The position numbers and the translations under genes were made by a program. 64,000 nt of DNA from Fodinicola acaciae (GTDB taxonomy: Bacteria; Actinomycetota; Actinomycetes; Mycobacteriales; HKI-0501): positions 868,001 to 932,000 of the forward strand of contig NZ_WOTN01000004.1 in the NCBI RefSeq assembly GCF_010993745.1. The letters run 5' to 3'. Position 1 is the stretch's first letter; each line of letters starts with the position of its first letter. Positions 14,852 through 27,267 of the stretch are shown here, in pieces. Below the pieces are notes generated by a model. It ran no database searches, was not told where the DNA came from, and saw only the letters and a program-made list of their open reading frames with translations.

Positions 14852-14895
14852 GCCCCTAGCGAAACACTTTCCGGCCTGCCGGACAGGTGTGGTGT

Positions 14896-15435
14896 ATGAG
14901 GACACTGAAACCAGACAGGGTGGCGCGCTTTCGAGCGCTCTTCGCTGACGCGTACGGGGACGTGCTGCGGTTCGCGCAGCGGCGCGTACACCCCTCACAT
15001 GCCGAGGATGTCGCGGCGGACGCCTTTCTTGTGGCGTGGCGGCGGCTCGACGACGCGCCGACCAGGTTTGACGACCTGCGCGCCTGGCTGTTCGGGATCG
15101 CGCGTCACTGCTTGCTCAACGCGCGCCGCGGACATGGCCGCCAGGACGCGCTCGCGGTGCGGGTCGCCGAGTCTTCGACGCCGCCGCCCACGGCCGATGC
15201 CGACTTTCTCGCGCTGCGCGTCGATCTGGCCGCCGCCTGGCGGCAGCTGAGCGACGCCGAGCAGGAGGTCCTGTCGCTGACCGTGTTCGAGGACCTGACC
15301 TCGTCGCAGGCGGCCAGGGTCCTCGGTGTCAGCTCCGCCTCGTATCGCCTGCGCCTGATGCGCGCTCGCCGCGCGCTGCGCCACCACCTTGCGCTTGCCA
15401 ACGCTCCGTTTCCGCAGATGGAGACCCAGTCATGA
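14896..15435 (+). CDS. ECF-type RNA polymerase sigma factor
   Basis: This 179-residue protein has sigma region 2 (FADAYGDVLRFAQRRV, then DVAADAFLVAWRRLDD) and region 4 (LSDAEQEVLSLTVFEDLTS with SSQAARVLGVSSASYRLRLM). The start could be ATG 14896 or GTG 14887; the ATG is preferred. The stop overlaps the next ATG by four bases, coupling it to a membrane-anchored partner. This is the usual layout of an ECF sigma factor with a regulatory membrane protein. The signal sensed is unknown. Confidence 0.88.
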   Translation: MRTLKPDRVARFRALFADAYGDVLRFAQRRVHPSHAEDVAADAFLVAWRRLDDAPTRFDDLRAWLFGIARHCLLNARRGHGRQDALAVRVAESSTPPPTADADFLALRVDLAAAWRQLSDAEQEVLSLTVFEDLTSSQAARVLGVSSASYRLRLMRARRALRHHLALANAPFPQMETQS

Positions 15436-16235
15436 ACGATTCCGCGCTCCGGTCCATCGACGCAGCGGCGTCGACCCTCACCACCGACGAACACCAGCGT
15501 GCGGCCAGCACGCTCGAACGCATCATCGCCACCGACCCGGGGATCCCCGCGCCGACACCGCCTCGCCGCGGCCGTGGCCGGCGCCGGCTGGCCATCGCCG
15601 CGCTCGCCGTCCTGCCAGTCGCCGTCGGCGGCTGGGTTCTGCTGCCCAAAGGCGACGACGGCGCCGCGTACGCCTCCTGGACCGCCGCTCCGAAGGCCGT
15701 CGGCGGACACCTCGACGCCATCAACGGCGCCTGCCGCGAGCAGGCGACCGGCGGCTCCATCGACATGGGCAGGGCCAAGATCGCGTTGGCCGAGCGCCGC
15801 GGTGAGTACGTCGCCGTGCTCTATCACACCGACAACCCGGACGTCTCCGCTCCTTGCCTGGTACGCAACCCGGCCGGCACCGACACCGTCGACGTGGTCG
15901 GCTTCGCGATCGGCGGGAGCAACGGCCCGGCGCCGAAGGCTCCGGCCGAGGGCTTCATGCCGGGCCAGATCGCGCAGTTCGCCGATGGTCCGGTCAGCTC
16001 GGTGACCGACGGCGTGGTCGGCTCGGAGGTCGTCGGTGTCACCATCCACGCCGGCAAGCTGACCGTTCAGGCGTCGGTGGAAAACGGCCGGTATGCCGCT
16101 TGGTGGCCGGGTCGTGCGTTCCCGGAGGGGCCAAACCAGCCGAGCGGACGCGGGGGACCGCAGGAGATCCTCACGTACGACCTGACGCTGGCCGACGGCA
16201 CCGTGGTGCACAACGCGAAGGCCTCGCGGCCGTAG
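15432..16235 (+). CDS. Membrane-anchored partner of sigma factor, possible anti-sigma or sensor
   Basis: This 267-residue protein has a cytoplasmic N-terminal segment of about 50 residues, a basic patch (RRGRGRRR), one membrane span (about residues 53-72, LAIAALAVLPVAVGG) and an extracytoplasmic domain of about 195 residues. No zinc-binding HxxxCxxC motif of ZAS anti-sigma factors is present. It is coupled by a four-base overlap to the sigma factor gene. The arrangement resembles the CU044_5270-like membrane proteins next to ECF factors. Anti-sigma activity is inferred from position only. Confidence 0.7.
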   Translation: MNDSALRSIDAAASTLTTDEHQRAASTLERIIATDPGIPAPTPPRRGRGRRRLAIAALAVLPVAVGGWVLLPKGDDGAAYASWTAAPKAVGGHLDAINGACREQATGGSIDMGRAKIALAERRGEYVAVLYHTDNPDVSAPCLVRNPAGTDTVDVVGFAIGGSNGPAPKAPAEGFMPGQIAQFADGPVSSVTDGVVGSEVVGVTIHAGKLTVQASVENGRYAAWWPGRAFPEGPNQPSGRGGPQEILTYDLTLADGTVVHNAKASRP

Positions 16236-16289: not shown

Positions 16290-16676
16290 CTAGTCCTCGC
16301 CGCGCCGCTCGTTGTCGCGCCGCTCGTTGTCGCGCCGCTCGTTGTCGCGCGCGATGAGAATGTCGATCGAGGCCGCGATCTGCGCCATGCCGGCGGCCGT
16401 GCCATCGAGCCTGCCGCGAATTTCGGCGAAGCCGCGATCCACTTCGGCAAAGCGGCGATCCATTTCGGCGAAGCCTCGATACATTTCGGCGAAGCCGTTG
16501 TCGACCTTCGTCTCAAGGCTCGTCAGCCGCGTCTCAACGCTTGTCAACCGCTTGTCGACCCCGTTGAACCGCTCGTTCACCTCCGTGCGGAAGGCGTTGA
16601 TGACGCGGTTGTTCTGGTCGCGATACGCGTGGAACTCCGTTCGCAACGCGTCGATGTCGCGATCCCGCTCTGTCAT
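16290..16676 (-). CDS. Coiled-coil protein with internal heptad-like repeats
   Basis: This 128-residue acidic and basic protein has no recognised enzymatic domain. After a start at ATG 16676 (AAGGTGG five bases upstream) it runs as one long amphipathic helix. There are seven-residue repeats GFAEMYR, GFAEMDR, RFAEVDR and GFAEIRG at about residues 64-92, preceded by LTSVETRLTSLETK. The C-terminus is a tandem of RDNER repeats encoded by a 15-bp DNA repeat. It resembles small coiled-coil proteins found widely in actinomycetes. Oligomerisation is likely; its role is unknown. Confidence 0.7.
   Translation of the reverse strand: MTERDRDIDALRTEFHAYRDQNNRVINAFRTEVNERFNGVDKRLTSVETRLTSLETKVDNGFAEMYRGFAEMDRRFAEVDRGFAEIRGRLDGTAAGMAQIAASIDILIARDNERRDNERRDNERRGED
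16301..16350. repeat. 15-bp tandem repeat, 3.3 copies
   Basis: The unit CGCGCCGCTCGTTGT occurs three times in a row, exactly, from 16301, followed by a partial copy. It lies inside the coiled-coil gene and encodes the repeated DNERR tail. Such exact repeats are prone to length change. Confidence 0.9.
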
Positions 16677-16759: not shown

Positions 16760-17344
16760 TCAATCGCGCGCGCGGGCGCGGTGCGCGCGTACTTTGTTGC
16801 GGTTGCCGCAATGTTCCATGCTGCACCAGCGCCGGTTGCCGGGCCGTGAGGTGTCCAGATAGAGCAGATAGCAGTTGTCGCCGGAGCACTGCTTGATCCG
16901 TCCGCTGGCCAGCGCCGCCATCGCGTCGGCCGCCGCGGCCGCCAGCACCTGACGGCCGGTGACCGGCGTCGACCAGTGCGGTTTCAGCGTCACAGGGTCG
17001 AGCCGCGGCACCGGCGGCTCGCCGGCGGCGGCATTGATGGTCGCGACATCGGCCGGGTCGGCTGGCTTGTTTTCGAGCGTACGCAGGACAACCGCGAGCA
17101 GTGCGTTGCGAAACTCCTTGATCCGCGCGAATTCGTCGTCGCCGATCGCCAGCTCAGATGACGCGACGCCGAGCATCGAGTCGCCGAGCCAGCGCACCAG
17201 GTCGTCGGGCTGGTGCAGCGACTCCCAGCGCGCATACATCCCCGGTCCGCCGGTCAGCAGCAGCTCCAGGCTGAACGTGCCGGCGTCGAAGGAGTACGCG
17301 TGACCGTCCGGGCTGCTGCGCATGATCCTTGCTCTGCTCGTCAC
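16760..17344 (-). CDS. CGNR zinc-finger protein, probable regulator
   Basis: This 194-residue protein has an N-terminal ABATE-like domain and a C-terminal CGNR zinc finger: CSGDNCYLLYLD, then RRWCSMEHCGNRNK. These are probably stress-linked DNA-binding proteins. I take GTG 17344 as the start because a TATAGT -10 box ends six bases before it, giving a leaderless transcript; ATG 17323 is the alternative. It is transcribed divergently from an NTF2-like gene with only 21 bases between the start codons, so it may control that gene and itself. A second CGNR gene lies at 26624. Confidence 0.85.
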   Translation of the reverse strand: MTSRARIMRSSPDGHAYSFDAGTFSLELLLTGGPGMYARWESLHQPDDLVRWLGDSMLGVASSELAIGDDEFARIKEFRNALLAVVLRTLENKPADPADVATINAAAGEPPVPRLDPVTLKPHWSTPVTGRQVLAAAAADAMAALASGRIKQCSGDNCYLLYLDTSRPGNRRWCSMEHCGNRNKVRAHRARARD

Positions 17345-17365
17345 GTAACCACTATAGTCAGTTAC
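17345..17365. promoter_or_regulatory. Divergent leaderless promoter with palindromic operator
   Basis: The 21-base gap has GTAAC at 17345-17349 and GTTAC at 17361-17365 as inverted arms around the self-complementary ACTATAGT. That core gives a TATAGT -10 box on both strands, six bases from the minus GTG and seven from the plus ATG. A TTGCTC lies 18 bases upstream of the plus -10. Binding at the arms would block both promoters. Confidence 0.6.
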
Positions 17366-17737
17366 ATGAAACCAGCTAAACAGGTTACGGATGAGATCGT
17401 CGCGATTGAGACCGAGATGTGGCGGGCCAACCGGGACGGCGATGGCGCCTTCTATCAGCGGCTCATCCGCGACGACGGCATCGTCGTCAGTCGCTATGGC
17501 GTGGCGACCAAGGCGCAGATCGTGCCGGTTGTCAGCAAAAACGACAACCCGTACGTGAAGACCGACCTCGACGAGTGGCGCGTGCTGCAGCCGACGCCGG
17601 ACACGGCGGTCGTCACGTACCGGTCAGCGGTCACCACCGGCGCCGGCGTCGAGTTCAAGGTGCTGGCGACGAGTGTGTACGCACGCGAAGCCGACGGCTG
17701 GCGCAGCGTCTTTCACCAGCAGACGCCGCTCGACTAG
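17366..17737 (+). CDS. NTF2-like / SnoaL-type small protein (DUF4440-like)
   Basis: This 123-residue protein has the cone-shaped NTF2 fold pattern: a helical start (TDEIVAIETEMWRANRDGD), then strands with VLQPTPDTAVVTYRS, and the ending DGWRSVFHQQTPLD, which is typical of DUF4440 proteins. It could be a small-molecule isomerase-like or binding protein; no catalytic residues can be assigned. The ATG at 17366 follows the -10 box by seven bases with no ribosome site, so the message looks leaderless. It is divergent from a CGNR regulator that probably controls it. Confidence 0.75.
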   Translation: MKPAKQVTDEIVAIETEMWRANRDGDGAFYQRLIRDDGIVVSRYGVATKAQIVPVVSKNDNPYVKTDLDEWRVLQPTPDTAVVTYRSAVTTGAGVEFKVLATSVYAREADGWRSVFHQQTPLD

Positions 17738-17750
17738 CGGACACTGGGCC

Positions 17751-18405
17751 CTAGGCCGCGAGGTGCTTCTGCATCCCCTCGGCCAGCTCCGCGAAGACGG
17801 CCTCGTTGAGCTCGAACGCGCGCTTGGTCTCGGCGACGACCTGCGCGCGTTCGGCGCGTCCCAGCCGGCGCCGTCCAGCAGCGACCGGTAGTGCCGGCGA
17901 AACTCGGCGGGGCTGCCGATCCGGTCGAAGACATAGAACATGGCGCCAGGCCCCTCGTGCCGTGGAACGTACGCAGCTTCGACCGGATCACCTGACCGCC
18001 GGAGATGTCACCGAGATAGCGCGTGTAATGGTGCGCGACGAAGCCGCCAGGCCAGCTGCCGGCGACATTGTGCAACCGCTCGCAATAGCGGCCGGTCGCG
18101 GCGTTTGGCGCGACGCGGCTCTGCCAGCCGGAGCCGAGGAGAAAGTCGAGGTCCTTGGTCAGCGCTGGTACGCGCCGGAGCCCGTCGATCACGAACGGGC
18201 CGGCGACCGGGTCCGTACGCATCGCGTCGGAGACCTCTTCCAGGGCCGTGTAGATGGAGAAGTGCTGGACGGCCAGCTCGGCGAACCCGGCCAACGCCAG
18301 CTCGCCGGACATCAGCTTGCCGATGAACGCGGCGCCTTCGGCGCGCTCATGGACCAGCCGCGTGGCGCCGCGCAGGACGTTGGAGAAGCGTTCCGTCTCA
18401 GCCAC
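17751..18405 (-). pseudogene. Heme oxygenase (HmuO-like), broken by two frameshifts
   Basis: The N-terminal two thirds read as a biliverdin-forming heme oxygenase: RLVHERAEG with the proximal heme His at about residue 19, and HYTRYLGDISGGQVI on the distal helix. After FHGTRG (about 17946) the homologous sequence moves to another frame (MFYVFDRIGSPAEFRRHYRS). After GWDA (about 17865) it moves to a third frame (ERAQVVAETKRAFELNEAVF), ending at the TAG at 17751-17753. All three pieces belong to one protein of about 218 residues. Either the gene has decayed or the sequence has two single-base errors in GC-rich runs. The start is GTG 18405. Confidence 0.8.
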
Positions 18406-18457: not shown

Positions 18458-18667
18458 CTACGTCCTGGCCAGGCCAGCGCCGGTCTTGAGGGCCGAGGTG
18501 AAGGTGGACCACGCGGTGGAGGTGAGGTGAAGCGTGCCGGCCGTACGTGCTTTGGAGTCGCGTACGCCGACCTCGTCGCTGGTCAACCGCACCTCGATGC
18601 AGTTGTCACTTCCGCCGCTGCTCCGACTGCTTTTGAACCAGCCAGTGTCGCGAGCGGCGATAGCCAT
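18458..18667 (-). CDS. DUF397 protein
   Basis: This 69-residue protein has the typical DUF397 core: GWFKSSRSSGGSDNCIEV, then VGVRDSKA and a C-terminal WSTFTSALK. The ATG lies two bases after the stop of the XRE regulator gene, so the two are co-transcribed. DUF397 proteins in Streptomyces accompany WhiJ/BldB-type developmental regulators, and interaction with the XRE partner is the usual proposal. Confidence 0.85.
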   Translation of the reverse strand: MAIAARDTGWFKSSRSSGGSDNCIEVRLTSDEVGVRDSKARTAGTLHLTSTAWSTFTSALKTGAGLART

Positions 18668-18669
18668 GA

Positions 18670-19539
18670 CTAGGTCGTCTCCTCCAGCTTGACGCGGATG
18701 ATGTCCCTGGTGCGCTCGGGAGTGTACGCGAGTTCGCGGATTTTGTTGAAAGCGCGAGTCATTCGCTCGGTATCGATTGCGTCGTCAAAGTACGTCGATG
18801 GGCCATAAGGGACAGAAAGGAAGCCGACTGGTCGCAGCGAGTCCCCGAATCGGTAGATCACCAGACCGCCTTGCTGGACGGGATTGTCGCGTCCGCTGTT
18901 AGGCACGATCTGGACGGTCAGGTGCCGGTTTTGGTCGATGAGGTCGAGGACGTGCTGGAGTTGACGCCGCATTACGGTCGGGCTGCCGACCTCGGCGACG
19001 AGCGTGTCATCGCTGAAGAAGACGTCGATCTGCTTCGGCCTGTCCGGATCGAAGACCGTCCGCTGGCGCTCGGTTCGAAATGCCACTCGTTTGGAGCGCT
19101 CGACCTCGGACGAGTCCCACCAGATGCCGTCCGATGCGTCCATCAATGCCTCGATGTACTCCGGTGACTGCAGACAAGCGGGGAAGACGCCGCGTTCGTA
19201 GTCCCAAATATCGCTCGCTAGCGCCTCAAGCAGGGCCAGTCGCTGGAAGGAGCCGGGTGCGAGGTCGGTGTACGGGCTGCGGCTGGAGCGCTTGCGCGCG
19301 TCGATGCCGAGCCGCAGGATCTCGCGGCGGCGGTCCGGCTCGGCGCCGAGGAAGTCGACCAGCGCCTCCAACTCCTCGGTCGACAGGCTGGAGTTGCCGT
19401 CGAAGACCTTCACGATGCGCGGCCGGTCCTTGCCGACCGCGCGTGCGCAGTCGTCGAGCGACTTGTTCGCGTCGGCGCGCAATTGGCGCAGCGCCGCACC
19501 GAGAAACACGCGCGGCAGTGTCGGGATGGCCTTGGCCAC
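18670..19539 (-). CDS. XRE-family regulator with DUF5753-like effector domain (WhiJ-like)
   Basis: This 289-residue protein has an N-terminal HTH (LRADANKSLDDCARAVGKDR, about residues 15-60) and a C-terminal DUF5753-type domain (FPACLQSPEYIEALM, then VIYRFGDSLRPVGFLSVPYG). The start is GTG 19539 with GAGAGG six bases upstream; an ATG at 19653 is possible but would run through the operator repeats. It forms an operon with the downstream DUF397 gene and is divergent from a 73-residue gene, the three-part layout of WhiJ-like clusters. Such systems affect development or antibiotic production in Streptomyces. Confidence 0.85.
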   Translation of the reverse strand: MAKAIPTLPRVFLGAALRQLRADANKSLDDCARAVGKDRPRIVKVFDGNSSLSTEELEALVDFLGAEPDRRREILRLGIDARKRSSRSPYTDLAPGSFQRLALLEALASDIWDYERGVFPACLQSPEYIEALMDASDGIWWDSSEVERSKRVAFRTERQRTVFDPDRPKQIDVFFSDDTLVAEVGSPTVMRRQLQHVLDLIDQNRHLTVQIVPNSGRDNPVQQGGLVIYRFGDSLRPVGFLSVPYGPSTYFDDAIDTERMTRAFNKIRELAYTPERTRDIIRVKLEETT

Positions 19540-19579
19540 GGTGAGCCTCTCGGTCGTCACGTCCGGTACTTGCGTACGA

Positions 19580-19613
19580 ACACAGTGTCCCTTAAGGTGC
19601 AGACACAGTGTCC
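19580..19613. promoter_or_regulatory. Direct-repeat operator between XRE and small gene
   Basis: ACACAGTGTCC occurs at 19580-19590 and again at 19603-19613, a spacing of 23 bases (about two helical turns). A related GTGGACACAGG follows at 19615-19625. They lie in the divergent promoter region of the WhiJ-like pair and are probable regulator binding sites. Confidence 0.55.
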
Positions 19614-19670
19614 TGTGGACACAGGAATCTACACCGAGCGTGACTCGGCGCATGCAGGGAGGGCTACACC

Positions 19671-25712: not shown

Positions 25713-26651
25713 ATGTCGATCAGCGAAGTCGTTATCGCCGTGCACGGCGGCGCCGGGTCTCTGCCGCGCGGCTCGCTGGACCGGTCGGACGAGGCGGCCT
25801 ATCGCGCCGGTCTGGAGGAGGCGCTGCGAGCCGGTGCCGCGCTGCTCGGCCGCGGTCAGTCCGCACTCGATGCCGTGGAGGCGGCCGTACGAGTGCTCGA
25901 GGACGATCCGTGCTTCAACGCGGGCAGGGGAGCGGTCTTCAACACCGACGGCGAGCAGGAGCTGGATGCCTGCATCATGGACGGCCGCGACCTGCGGTCC
26001 GGCGCGGTCGCCGGCGTACGCAACACCAAGAACCCGATCTCGTTGGCACGCGTGGTGATGGAGCGCTCCAAGCATGTCCTGATCGCCGGTCATGGCGCGG
26101 ACATTTTCGCGCTGCGAAACGGGTTCCCGTACACGACAAGGGACTACTTCTTCACCCAGCGGCGCTGGGACGCCTTGATCGACGCCAAAAATCCGCCGGA
26201 GGCCGCGCAGCCGGTCCAGGTCGGCGAGACCGTCGGTGCCGTGGCGATCGACGCGCGCCACGAGTTGGCCGCGGCCACCTCGACCGGTGGCCAGACCGAC
26301 ATGCTGGCCGGCCGGGTCGGCGACACGCCGATCGTCGGCGCCGGCACGTACGCGGACAGCCGTACGGTCGCCGTGTCCTGCACGGGGATCGGCGAGGTGT
26401 TCATCCGCGGGGTCGCCGCGTACGACATCTCCGCGCTGATCGACTATGCGCACGTCGGCGTCGAGGAGGCCGCCGCGCGCGTCGTCACGGAGAAGATCCC
26501 GGCGCTGGGCGCCGCCGGCGGCGCGATCGCGCTCGACCGGCACGGCACGCTCGCGGCGCCGCACAGCTCGCCGGGGATCATCAACGGCTTTCTGCTGCGC
26601 GACGGCTCGGTGGTGACGCGGCTCTACGACGACGAGACGCCGCCGCGCTGA
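25713..26651 (+). CDS. Isoaspartyl peptidase / L-asparaginase (Ntn hydrolase)
   Basis: This 312-residue plant-type asparaginase precursor has HGGAGS at the N-terminus, FNAGRGAVFN, and the maturation site QVGETVGAVAID with the catalytic Thr at 173, followed by STGG and GAGTYAD. It should self-cleave before Thr173 into alpha and beta subunits. The residue before the Thr is Glu, where most family members have Gly. It hydrolyses isoaspartyl dipeptides and asparagine. It is probably co-transcribed with the HxlR gene, and its 3' end overlaps the convergent CGNR gene by 28 bases. Confidence 0.9.
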   Translation: MSISEVVIAVHGGAGSLPRGSLDRSDEAAYRAGLEEALRAGAALLGRGQSALDAVEAAVRVLEDDPCFNAGRGAVFNTDGEQELDACIMDGRDLRSGAVAGVRNTKNPISLARVVMERSKHVLIAGHGADIFALRNGFPYTTRDYFFTQRRWDALIDAKNPPEAAQPVQVGETVGAVAIDARHELAAATSTGGQTDMLAGRVGDTPIVGAGTYADSRTVAVSCTGIGEVFIRGVAAYDISALIDYAHVGVEEAAARVVTEKIPALGAAGGAIALDRHGTLAAPHSSPGIINGFLLRDGSVVTRLYDDETPPR

Positions 26652-27202
26652 CGGCGTGCGCGGAAGTTGGCGACGTTGACCCGGTTGCCGCAGACCTCCG
26701 GCACGCAATAGCGGCGTTTGCCGCCGCGGCTGGTGTCGGCGAAGACGCCGACGCAGGTCGGTGAGGCGCAGATCCGCAGCCGGTTGGCGCCGAGCGCCTG
26801 CACGACGCCGAGCAGGCCGGTGCCGGCGATCAGCGCCAGCTCGTCGGCGAGGCCGGCGCCTGGCGCGGTGCGCGCGTACCAGCGCCACTGACCGTCCGCC
26901 GACCGGCTCAGCGCTGGTCCGCCGCCGGCCGTGGCCAGCTCGTTTGCCACCTCCACAGCGGTCTCCGGCGAGTCGAATGCCGGCCGGATGCGCGTACGGA
27001 GATCGCGTACGGCCGCCACCTCGTCGTCGGTCGGCAGGCGTCCGGCGAGCGCGTCGGAGCGTACGTCGTGCGCGCCGAGGAAGCTCGCCAGCGCGGCCGG
27101 ACCGGCCAGATGGTCGCCGTCCGGCATCACCTCGGCCGACGTGTTGACGAGGTCGGCGGCCAACGCCGCCGGCCATGCGTAATCGGATAAAGCGACTTGC
27201 AC
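26624..27202 (-). CDS. CGNR zinc-finger protein (second copy)
   Basis: This 192-residue protein has an N-terminal ABATE-like domain and a C-terminal zinc finger CASPTCVGVFAD, then RRYCVPEVCGNRVNVANFR. The start is GTG 27202 with a weak upstream ribosome site. It is divergent from an MFS exporter gene over about 65 bases, which again puts a CGNR protein opposite a possible target gene. It shares fold and motifs with the protein at 16760 but is clearly diverged. Confidence 0.87.
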   Translation of the reverse strand: MQVALSDYAWPAALAADLVNTSAEVMPDGDHLAGPAALASFLGAHDVRSDALAGRLPTDDEVAAVRDLRTRIRPAFDSPETAVEVANELATAGGGPALSRSADGQWRWYARTAPGAGLADELALIAGTGLLGVVQALGANRLRICASPTCVGVFADTSRGGKRRYCVPEVCGNRVNVANFRARRQRGGVSSS

Positions 27203-27267
27203 GCCTTACAACCACCTTGTTAGCGTAATGGAATTAGAGCGAGTTTACCTCTTACTCGGGGTTGGTC

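Follow-up and report, generated by a model that had tools for sequence, protein, structure and literature searches.

Two divergent genes in the window, the whole 64,000-nucleotide stretch of DNA that was analyzed, are transcribed away from a very short common interval. The question raised by this locus is how two promoters and two translation starts are accommodated in this interval, and whether the protein encoded on one side may control both genes from a site located there.

Layout of the region between the two start codons

The start codons, GTG at 17344-17342 on the minus strand and ATG at 17366-17368 on the plus strand, are separated by 21 bases, as the first-pass annotation had reported. 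Read directly, the 27 bases from 17342 to 17368 are CAC-GTAAC-CACTATAGTCA-GTTAC-ATG. The interval is completely filled by an inverted repeat without strand assignment, GTAAC-N11-GTTAC (17345..17365, hereafter O1), with arms at 17345-17349 (GTAAC) and 17361-17365 (GTTAC). Based on its sequence and conservation, O1 is the main inverted repeat of the region and the proposed operator of the CGNR protein encoded on the minus strand. In the orientation of this regulator gene, O1 reads GTAACT-GACTATAGT-GGTTAC and agrees with GTAACC-N9-GGTTAC at 11 of 12 arm positions.

A self-complementary -10 region, ACTATAGT (17351..17358), is nested between the arms of O1. The -10-like hexamer TATAGT can be read on both of its strands, as had been claimed, at 17353-17358 on the plus strand and at 17356-17351 on the minus strand. 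These hexamers are located 7 bases before the ATG and 6 bases before the GTG, respectively, within the previously stated distance of six to seven bases, and they overlap on opposite strands within O1, as expected of a shared -10 promoter. The arms and the -10 box had also been placed on a single axis; the two axes are, however, half a base apart (17355 for the arms and 17354.5 for ACTATAGT). No Shine-Dalgarno (SD)-like tetramer is found upstream of either start in the window. With a TANNNT -10 element approximately 6–8 bases before the start and no ribosome-binding site, both genes are predicted to be leaderless.

The regulator and its family

The minus-strand gene (16760..17344) encodes a protein of 194 residues that belongs to the ABATE/CGNR family. 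Both of its Pfam matches, the CGNR zinc finger (PF11706, 72.4 bits, cut-off 24) and the ABATE domain (PF07336, 61.5 bits, cut-off 24.4), exceed the curated cut-offs, and the four cysteines and the CGNR motif are visible in the protein. The start was assigned to the GTG at 17344, from which a leaderless message is predicted, because in 63 of the 69 loci with a dyad (see below) the homologue has an ATG or GTG that directly abuts the corresponding arm; for the same reason, a start at the ATG at 17323 is not favored. The only solved structure that matches the protein below an E-value of 0.1 is PDB entry 3h0n (E 2.9e-5).

Proteins with a zf-CGNR domain are frequent in actinobacteria, with a match in 104 of 148 genomes searched. 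A search of the source genome with the window CGNR protein gives 12 matches and one with PF11706 gives 15, counting the window gene. A second open reading frame of the family is located in the window at 26627-27205 on the minus strand (locus L192) and ends near ...CVPEVCGNRVNVANFRARR; it appears in none of the lists of CGNR loci with a dyad.

Conservation of the dyad at CGNR loci

A search for relatives of the window CGNR protein yielded a near set of 80 loci, mostly from Streptomyces, with others from Nocardia, Actinomadura, Micromonospora, Nocardiopsis, Kitasatospora, Thermomonospora, Actinokineospora and further genera, and with a few proteobacteria at the weak-scoring end. These loci are related, and three of those with a dyad (L052, L055 and L056), all from a single assembly, do not differ in the compared stretch; therefore, the following counts are not independent.

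GTAACC-N9-GGTTAC, with at most two arm mismatches, precedes the gene in 69 of the 80 loci. The arms are perfect in 54 of these, with one mismatch in 14 and two in one, and GTAAC is intact in all 69. The CGNR start is flush with the right arm in 63 loci (61 ATG, 2 GTG), none of which has an SD-like tetramer upstream on this side; the other six lack a flush start codon on the CGNR side. The 11 loci without an accepted dyad include L031, whose site has one arm mismatch and is located outside the scanned stretch, L057, with the right half only, and L087, L098, L101 and L106, with no site or partial matches. The remaining five are from Marinomonas (L104) and from Chelativorans and Nitratireductor (L107-L110).

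The hexamer nested in the dyad is TATATT in 31 loci, TATAGT in 29, TATACT in 2 and TATAAT in 1, so that TATA[GTCA]T occupies the position of the window's regulator -10 in 63 of 69 loci; the other six have a different sequence. Thus the regulator side mostly reads TATAGT or TATATT, and the partner side is usually TATAAC, without the last T. The first-pass annotation had described a single self-complementary -10 box serving both genes. The window sequence fits this description, but ACTATAGT itself occurs within the CGNR dyads of only three loci, namely the window, a congener (L004) and L002, which is from another family of the order.

Proposed mechanism

We consider it probable that O1 is a combined CGNR operator and mostly leaderless bidirectional promoter, from which a dimer of the CGNR protein would repress both its own gene and the neighboring gene. 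Two -10 boxes, one per strand, would draw on the common TATA core of ACTATAGT, and transcription would begin on each strand at the start codon or directly beside it (near 17344 for the minus strand and near 17366 for the plus strand), giving leaderless mRNAs. The GTAAC and GTTAC arms would be the half-sites recognized by the zinc-finger regulator. Since the arms fill the bases between each -10 box and its start codon, the operator would end where the messages begin. A dimer on O1 would lie across the two -10 boxes and the two start points and would thereby repress both genes together, and presumably a small ligand of the ABATE domain would release it. In these terms, the arrangement as predicted works like a bidirectional promoter joined to the operator of an autorepressor. 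A role of the dyad as an RNA hairpin or terminator was set aside, because neither message would contain the dyad if both starts are leaderless.

The divergent partner genes

The partner in the window (17366..17737, plus strand) encodes a DUF4440/SnoaL_3 protein of 123 residues, with an ATG start and a predicted leaderless message; the assignment is based on Pfam and on a homologue in the congener (G001). The congener homologue (59% identity) is likewise divergent from a CGNR homologue. However, its start lies some 50 bases farther downstream and is preceded by AAGGA and an apparent leader, and the O1 arm on its side is eroded from GTTAC to GTGTC. The flush geometry of the partner start is therefore absent from this congener, and a leaderless partner is not constant in the genus. 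The earlier description of the locus as a leaderless divergent promoter is accordingly supported for the window itself, where the promoter is compact, SD-like tetramers are absent and each start codon has a -10-like box 6 or 7 bases away, but does not extend to the partner gene of the congener.

In the near set, the usual partner is a Glyoxalase_6-like gene, which is present in 47 of the 69 loci with a dyad, as scored with a profile of the commonest divergent gene. Of these, 45 were recognized by motif and two as full genes (L039 and L041); L086 has a fragment. The family identity comes from Pfam searches with three near-set examples, all of which matched PF18029. In 45 of the 47 loci, the start codon of the glyoxalase gene directly abuts the left arm (44 ATG, 1 GTG), and an SD-like tetramer was found upstream in only 1 of 44 checked. 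Among the 22 loci in which no full glyoxalase gene lies within 900 bp, a flush start on the partner side is found in only four (ATG in L062, L082 and L092, GTG in L058), which argues that the flush codon is a real partner start. By this comparison of sequences, the start codon on the left is that of the particular partner gene at each locus. L062 and L082 appear by eye to hold remnants of the same glyoxalase gene. The outer CAT...ATG was also considered as part of the operator and rejected: 18 of the 22 loci without glyoxalase lack the left CAT, and one other has CAC in its place.

The best surviving alternative is that the dyad is a CGNR operator on the leaderless promoter of the regulator only, with the neighboring gene merely close by and transcribed from another start, more weakly or conditionally, possibly from inside the regulator gene. 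Both GTAAC and GTTAC are kept in all 22 loci without glyoxalase, so the arms belong to the regulator; the partner-side -10 lacks its final T in all 47 glyoxalase loci (TATAAC in 40), so this box may drive the partner only weakly, or the partner transcript may begin at another place; and the leader and AAGGA of the congener DUF4440 gene point the same way. Against this, the flush glyoxalase starts and the lack of an SD-like tetramer in 43 of the 44 checked fit leaderless starts at the dyad, and the partner box in the window is a full TATAGT 7 bases before its ATG. A promoter for the regulator only is therefore judged unlikely, and joint control of both genes from O1 is preferred.

A second inverted repeat

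A weaker inverted repeat, GAAACC-N9-GGTTAC (17368..17388, without strand assignment, hereafter O2), is proposed from the sequence as a second site. It is located 23 bp from O1, over codons 1–8 of the DUF4440 gene, and lies upstream of the regulator -10, about where a -35 element would be. The tandem layout recurs in L002, with dyads 22 bp apart, TTGACC in the distal one and TATAGT in the proximal one. Weaker tandem second sites are found in L007 (24 bp) and in the congener L004 (22 bp, 3 mismatches). In a control with 1380 random positions, two or fewer mismatches were never reached and three were found in 0.14%.

The first-pass annotation had proposed that a single dimer would act on both genes. 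This is not fully supported, since O2 suggests two: in the lineage of the window, two dimers may act, the second of which, on O2, would cover the region upstream of the regulator -10.

Such a tandem site raises a further alternative, in which the CGNR protein is an activator, or switches between activator and repressor, and O2 recruits polymerase for the regulator gene while blocking the partner. The sites spaced 22–24 bp apart in the window, L002, L004 and L007, one of them at about the -35 position, speak for it, as does the tendency of activation in one direction to repress the divergent RNA at E. coli bidirectional promoters, as described in PMC12825309. On the other side, O1 itself spans both -10 boxes, so that a protein bound there would be expected to keep polymerase out, and no tandem site with four or fewer mismatches (best match at least 5) is found in the 69 near loci with a dyad. 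Activation or switching thus appears improbable, somewhat more so than a promoter for the regulator only, and repression from O1 is retained as the main mode.

Association of the dyad with CGNR genes across genomes

GTAACC-N9-GGTTAC was found at 35 sites in 32 of 394 genomes of the class. A CGNR gene is located downstream in 19 of the 30 exact-dyad loci examined out of these 35, with the exact site 18 to 105 bases before the CGNR domain, and all 9 of the loci with TATA in the gap are among these 19. The scrambled control CAATGG-N9-CCATTG, which has the same overall composition, occurs at 26 sites, with a CGNR gene beside none of the 22 examined. These and the near-set counts support an inverted repeat that accompanies CGNR genes across actinobacteria. 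Genome-wide, the two control patterns (27 sites backwards-read, 26 scrambled) are nearly as frequent as the dyad; therefore, the pattern without its context has no specificity of its own.

The association was also examined from the protein side. TAACC inverted repeats with gaps of 0 to 31 bases and at most one mismatch were scanned in 140 CGNR loci selected by protein score, of which 134 were usable after removal of two duplicates (L150 and L147) and four loci that were too short (L233, L156, L029 and L239). Repeats were found with a gap of 9 bases (N9) in 21 loci, N18 in 14 and N17 in 6; 29 permuted half-sites at the same gaps averaged 0.3 to 0.5 and never exceeded 2 (for N9, mean 0.5 and maximum 2). 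Neither an N9 nor an N17-18 site is present in 94 of the 134 loci, so the spacing rule is not shown for most of the family. The median score to a model built from window-type proteins is 233 bits for the N9 loci versus 75 bits for the N17-18 loci, which indicates that the gap follows the CGNR subfamily. Two other peaks were not taken as classes of their own: 12 of the 23 sites in the N0 peak (22 loci) lie inside an N9-type site, and the permuted half-site CTAAC at N20 (11 loci) resembles the N18 site shifted outward by one base.

TAACC-N17/18-GGTTA occurs upstream of distant CGNR genes in L018, L019, L144, L153, L158, L160, L171, L188 and others, sometimes twice in a locus. Six distant loci (L013, L020, L120, L122, L140 and L141) contain two N9 dyads approximately 38 to 49 bp apart, and GTCAA, which is TTGAC on the opposite strand, is often present in the gene-proximal dyad. 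In other CGNR subfamilies, promoters may thus be flanked by an operator on either side.

The dyad could instead be the operator of another regulator or of a nucleoid protein, with the CGNR protein acting elsewhere. Eleven of the 30 exact-dyad loci have no CGNR gene in the examined stretch (3 of the 11 end at a contig end), and searches of open-access papers yielded no title or abstract that describes an operator or target for a CGNR-family protein. Nevertheless, the 19 CGNR genes beside the dyad versus none beside the control, and the dependence of half-site spacing on CGNR subfamily, make another DNA-binding protein at this site quite improbable, and we infer that the CGNR protein itself binds the arms.

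In the 8.86 Mb source genome, GTAAC-N11-GTTAC occurs once, at O1, and a backwards-read control pattern also occurs once, so the dyad by itself is not improbable at the scale of the genome, and its rarity proves nothing. With one mismatch allowed, the window contains two matches (O1 and the site at 17368) versus 0.24 expected, and two such matches were reached in 3 of 100 shuffles. The dyad is lifted above chance by its conservation and by the fact that it directly abuts both start codons; a lone exact site in its own genome fits a local regulator. A chance dyad beside ordinary promoters can be dismissed as extremely improbable and already contradicted: from its composition, a genome this large should contain roughly one such pattern, in line with the single backwards-read match, but arms, register and position are conserved in 69 of 80 loci of many genera.

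The partners at N9 sites of distant CGNR genes were identified by Pfam for eight proteins, which were hand-chosen and show variety rather than frequency: AHSA1 (L002), Ribonuc_L-PSP, which is RidA-like (L152), EamA (L122 and L130), MFS_1 (L140 and L009), epoxide hydrolase (L026) and Glyoxalase_6 (L135). Further RidA-like look-alikes were noted by eye in L155, L164, L165, L169 and L170. At RidA-type loci, the partner start is not flush in six of seven; five are 9-10 bases off, and the reading frame of L007 was not delimited.

A family-wide reading would join these observations, and we see even chances for and against it. CGNR zinc fingers would read TAACC inverted repeats with a gap of 9 or of 17-18 bases according to subfamily, the 9-base gap would hold a promoter hexamer, and one branch would have fused the operator, two -10 elements and two flush starts into a 27-bp unit. 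The neighboring gene would be exchanged, as if the unit were a ligand-sensing switch that can be moved between small genes for detoxification or export (Glyoxalase_6, DUF4440, RidA-like, AHSA1, EamA and MFS exporters, epoxide hydrolase).

Other features of the window

Downstream of the DUF4440 gene, a heme oxygenase match at 17734-18405 (minus strand) stops at position 140 of the 204 profile positions. A minus-strand frame at 17624-17941 overlaps this gene and by eye may continue it, but has no Pfam match; a frameshift in the heme oxygenase gene is therefore no more than a suspicion. On the other side, a gene for a sigma-70-family (ECF-like) sigma factor in the region 14887-16235 (plus strand) overlaps the next gene by 4 bases, and the latter has only weak, below-cut-off matches to anti-sigma-type models. 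A small protein without a Pfam match is encoded at 16290-16676 (minus strand) and contains repeated FAEMDRRFAE-like and RRDNE-like units, which match DNA repeats near 16300-16350. At 18458-19653 (minus strand), a DUF397 gene adjoins a helix-turn-helix/DUF5753 gene, a pairing that is common in streptomycetes.

Comparison with known systems

The regulator shares its two-domain ABATE and CGNR zinc-finger architecture with Jann_2411 (PDB code 3h0n), which is described as a likely dimer whose zinc finger is predicted to bind DNA and is proposed to be a ligand-sensing DNA-binding regulator (PMC2954205). No operator or target gene was found in that report, whose main text contains neither 'operator' nor 'promoter'. 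The conserved dyad thus provides a testable candidate recognition sequence for part of this little-studied family.

Leaderless messages are commonplace in the group; in Streptomyces coelicolor, they arise from 21.0% of primary start sites, and the -10 motif is TANNNT (PMC4895711). A close regulatory parallel among the divergent autorepressors of actinobacteria is CrtR of Corynebacterium glutamicum, a MarR-type regulator whose own transcript is reported to be leaderless and whose operator overlaps promoter elements (PMC5401885). In both systems, the regulator gene is divergent from its target and represses both, as proposed here for the window. In contrast to CrtR, with approximately 200 bp between the genes and a target start 114 bases before the start codon, the window has a CGNR zinc-finger regulator, 21 bp between the genes and a shared -10 region.

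In the shared -10 bidirectional promoters described in E. coli and Salmonella by Warman, Grainger and colleagues, a near-symmetrical -10 element serves both strands, and two polymerases cannot bind simultaneously (PMC12825309, PMC10268837); the start points are most often 18 bp apart, and also 10 and 23 (PMC12825309). The window site resembles them in its near-symmetrical -10 element, readable on both strands, and in its closely spaced predicted start points. It differs in that the predicted starts are 22 apart with only the TATA core in common, and it therefore has a different register. Two features are particular to the window site relative to the descriptions in these two reports: an inverted repeat that fills the gaps between each -10 and start, and two messages that are both predicted to be leaderless. 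The result is a short natural module in which an operator, two promoters and two translation starts would coincide and, if this is true, a conserved case for polymerase competition at a shared -10 element with both messages leaderless.
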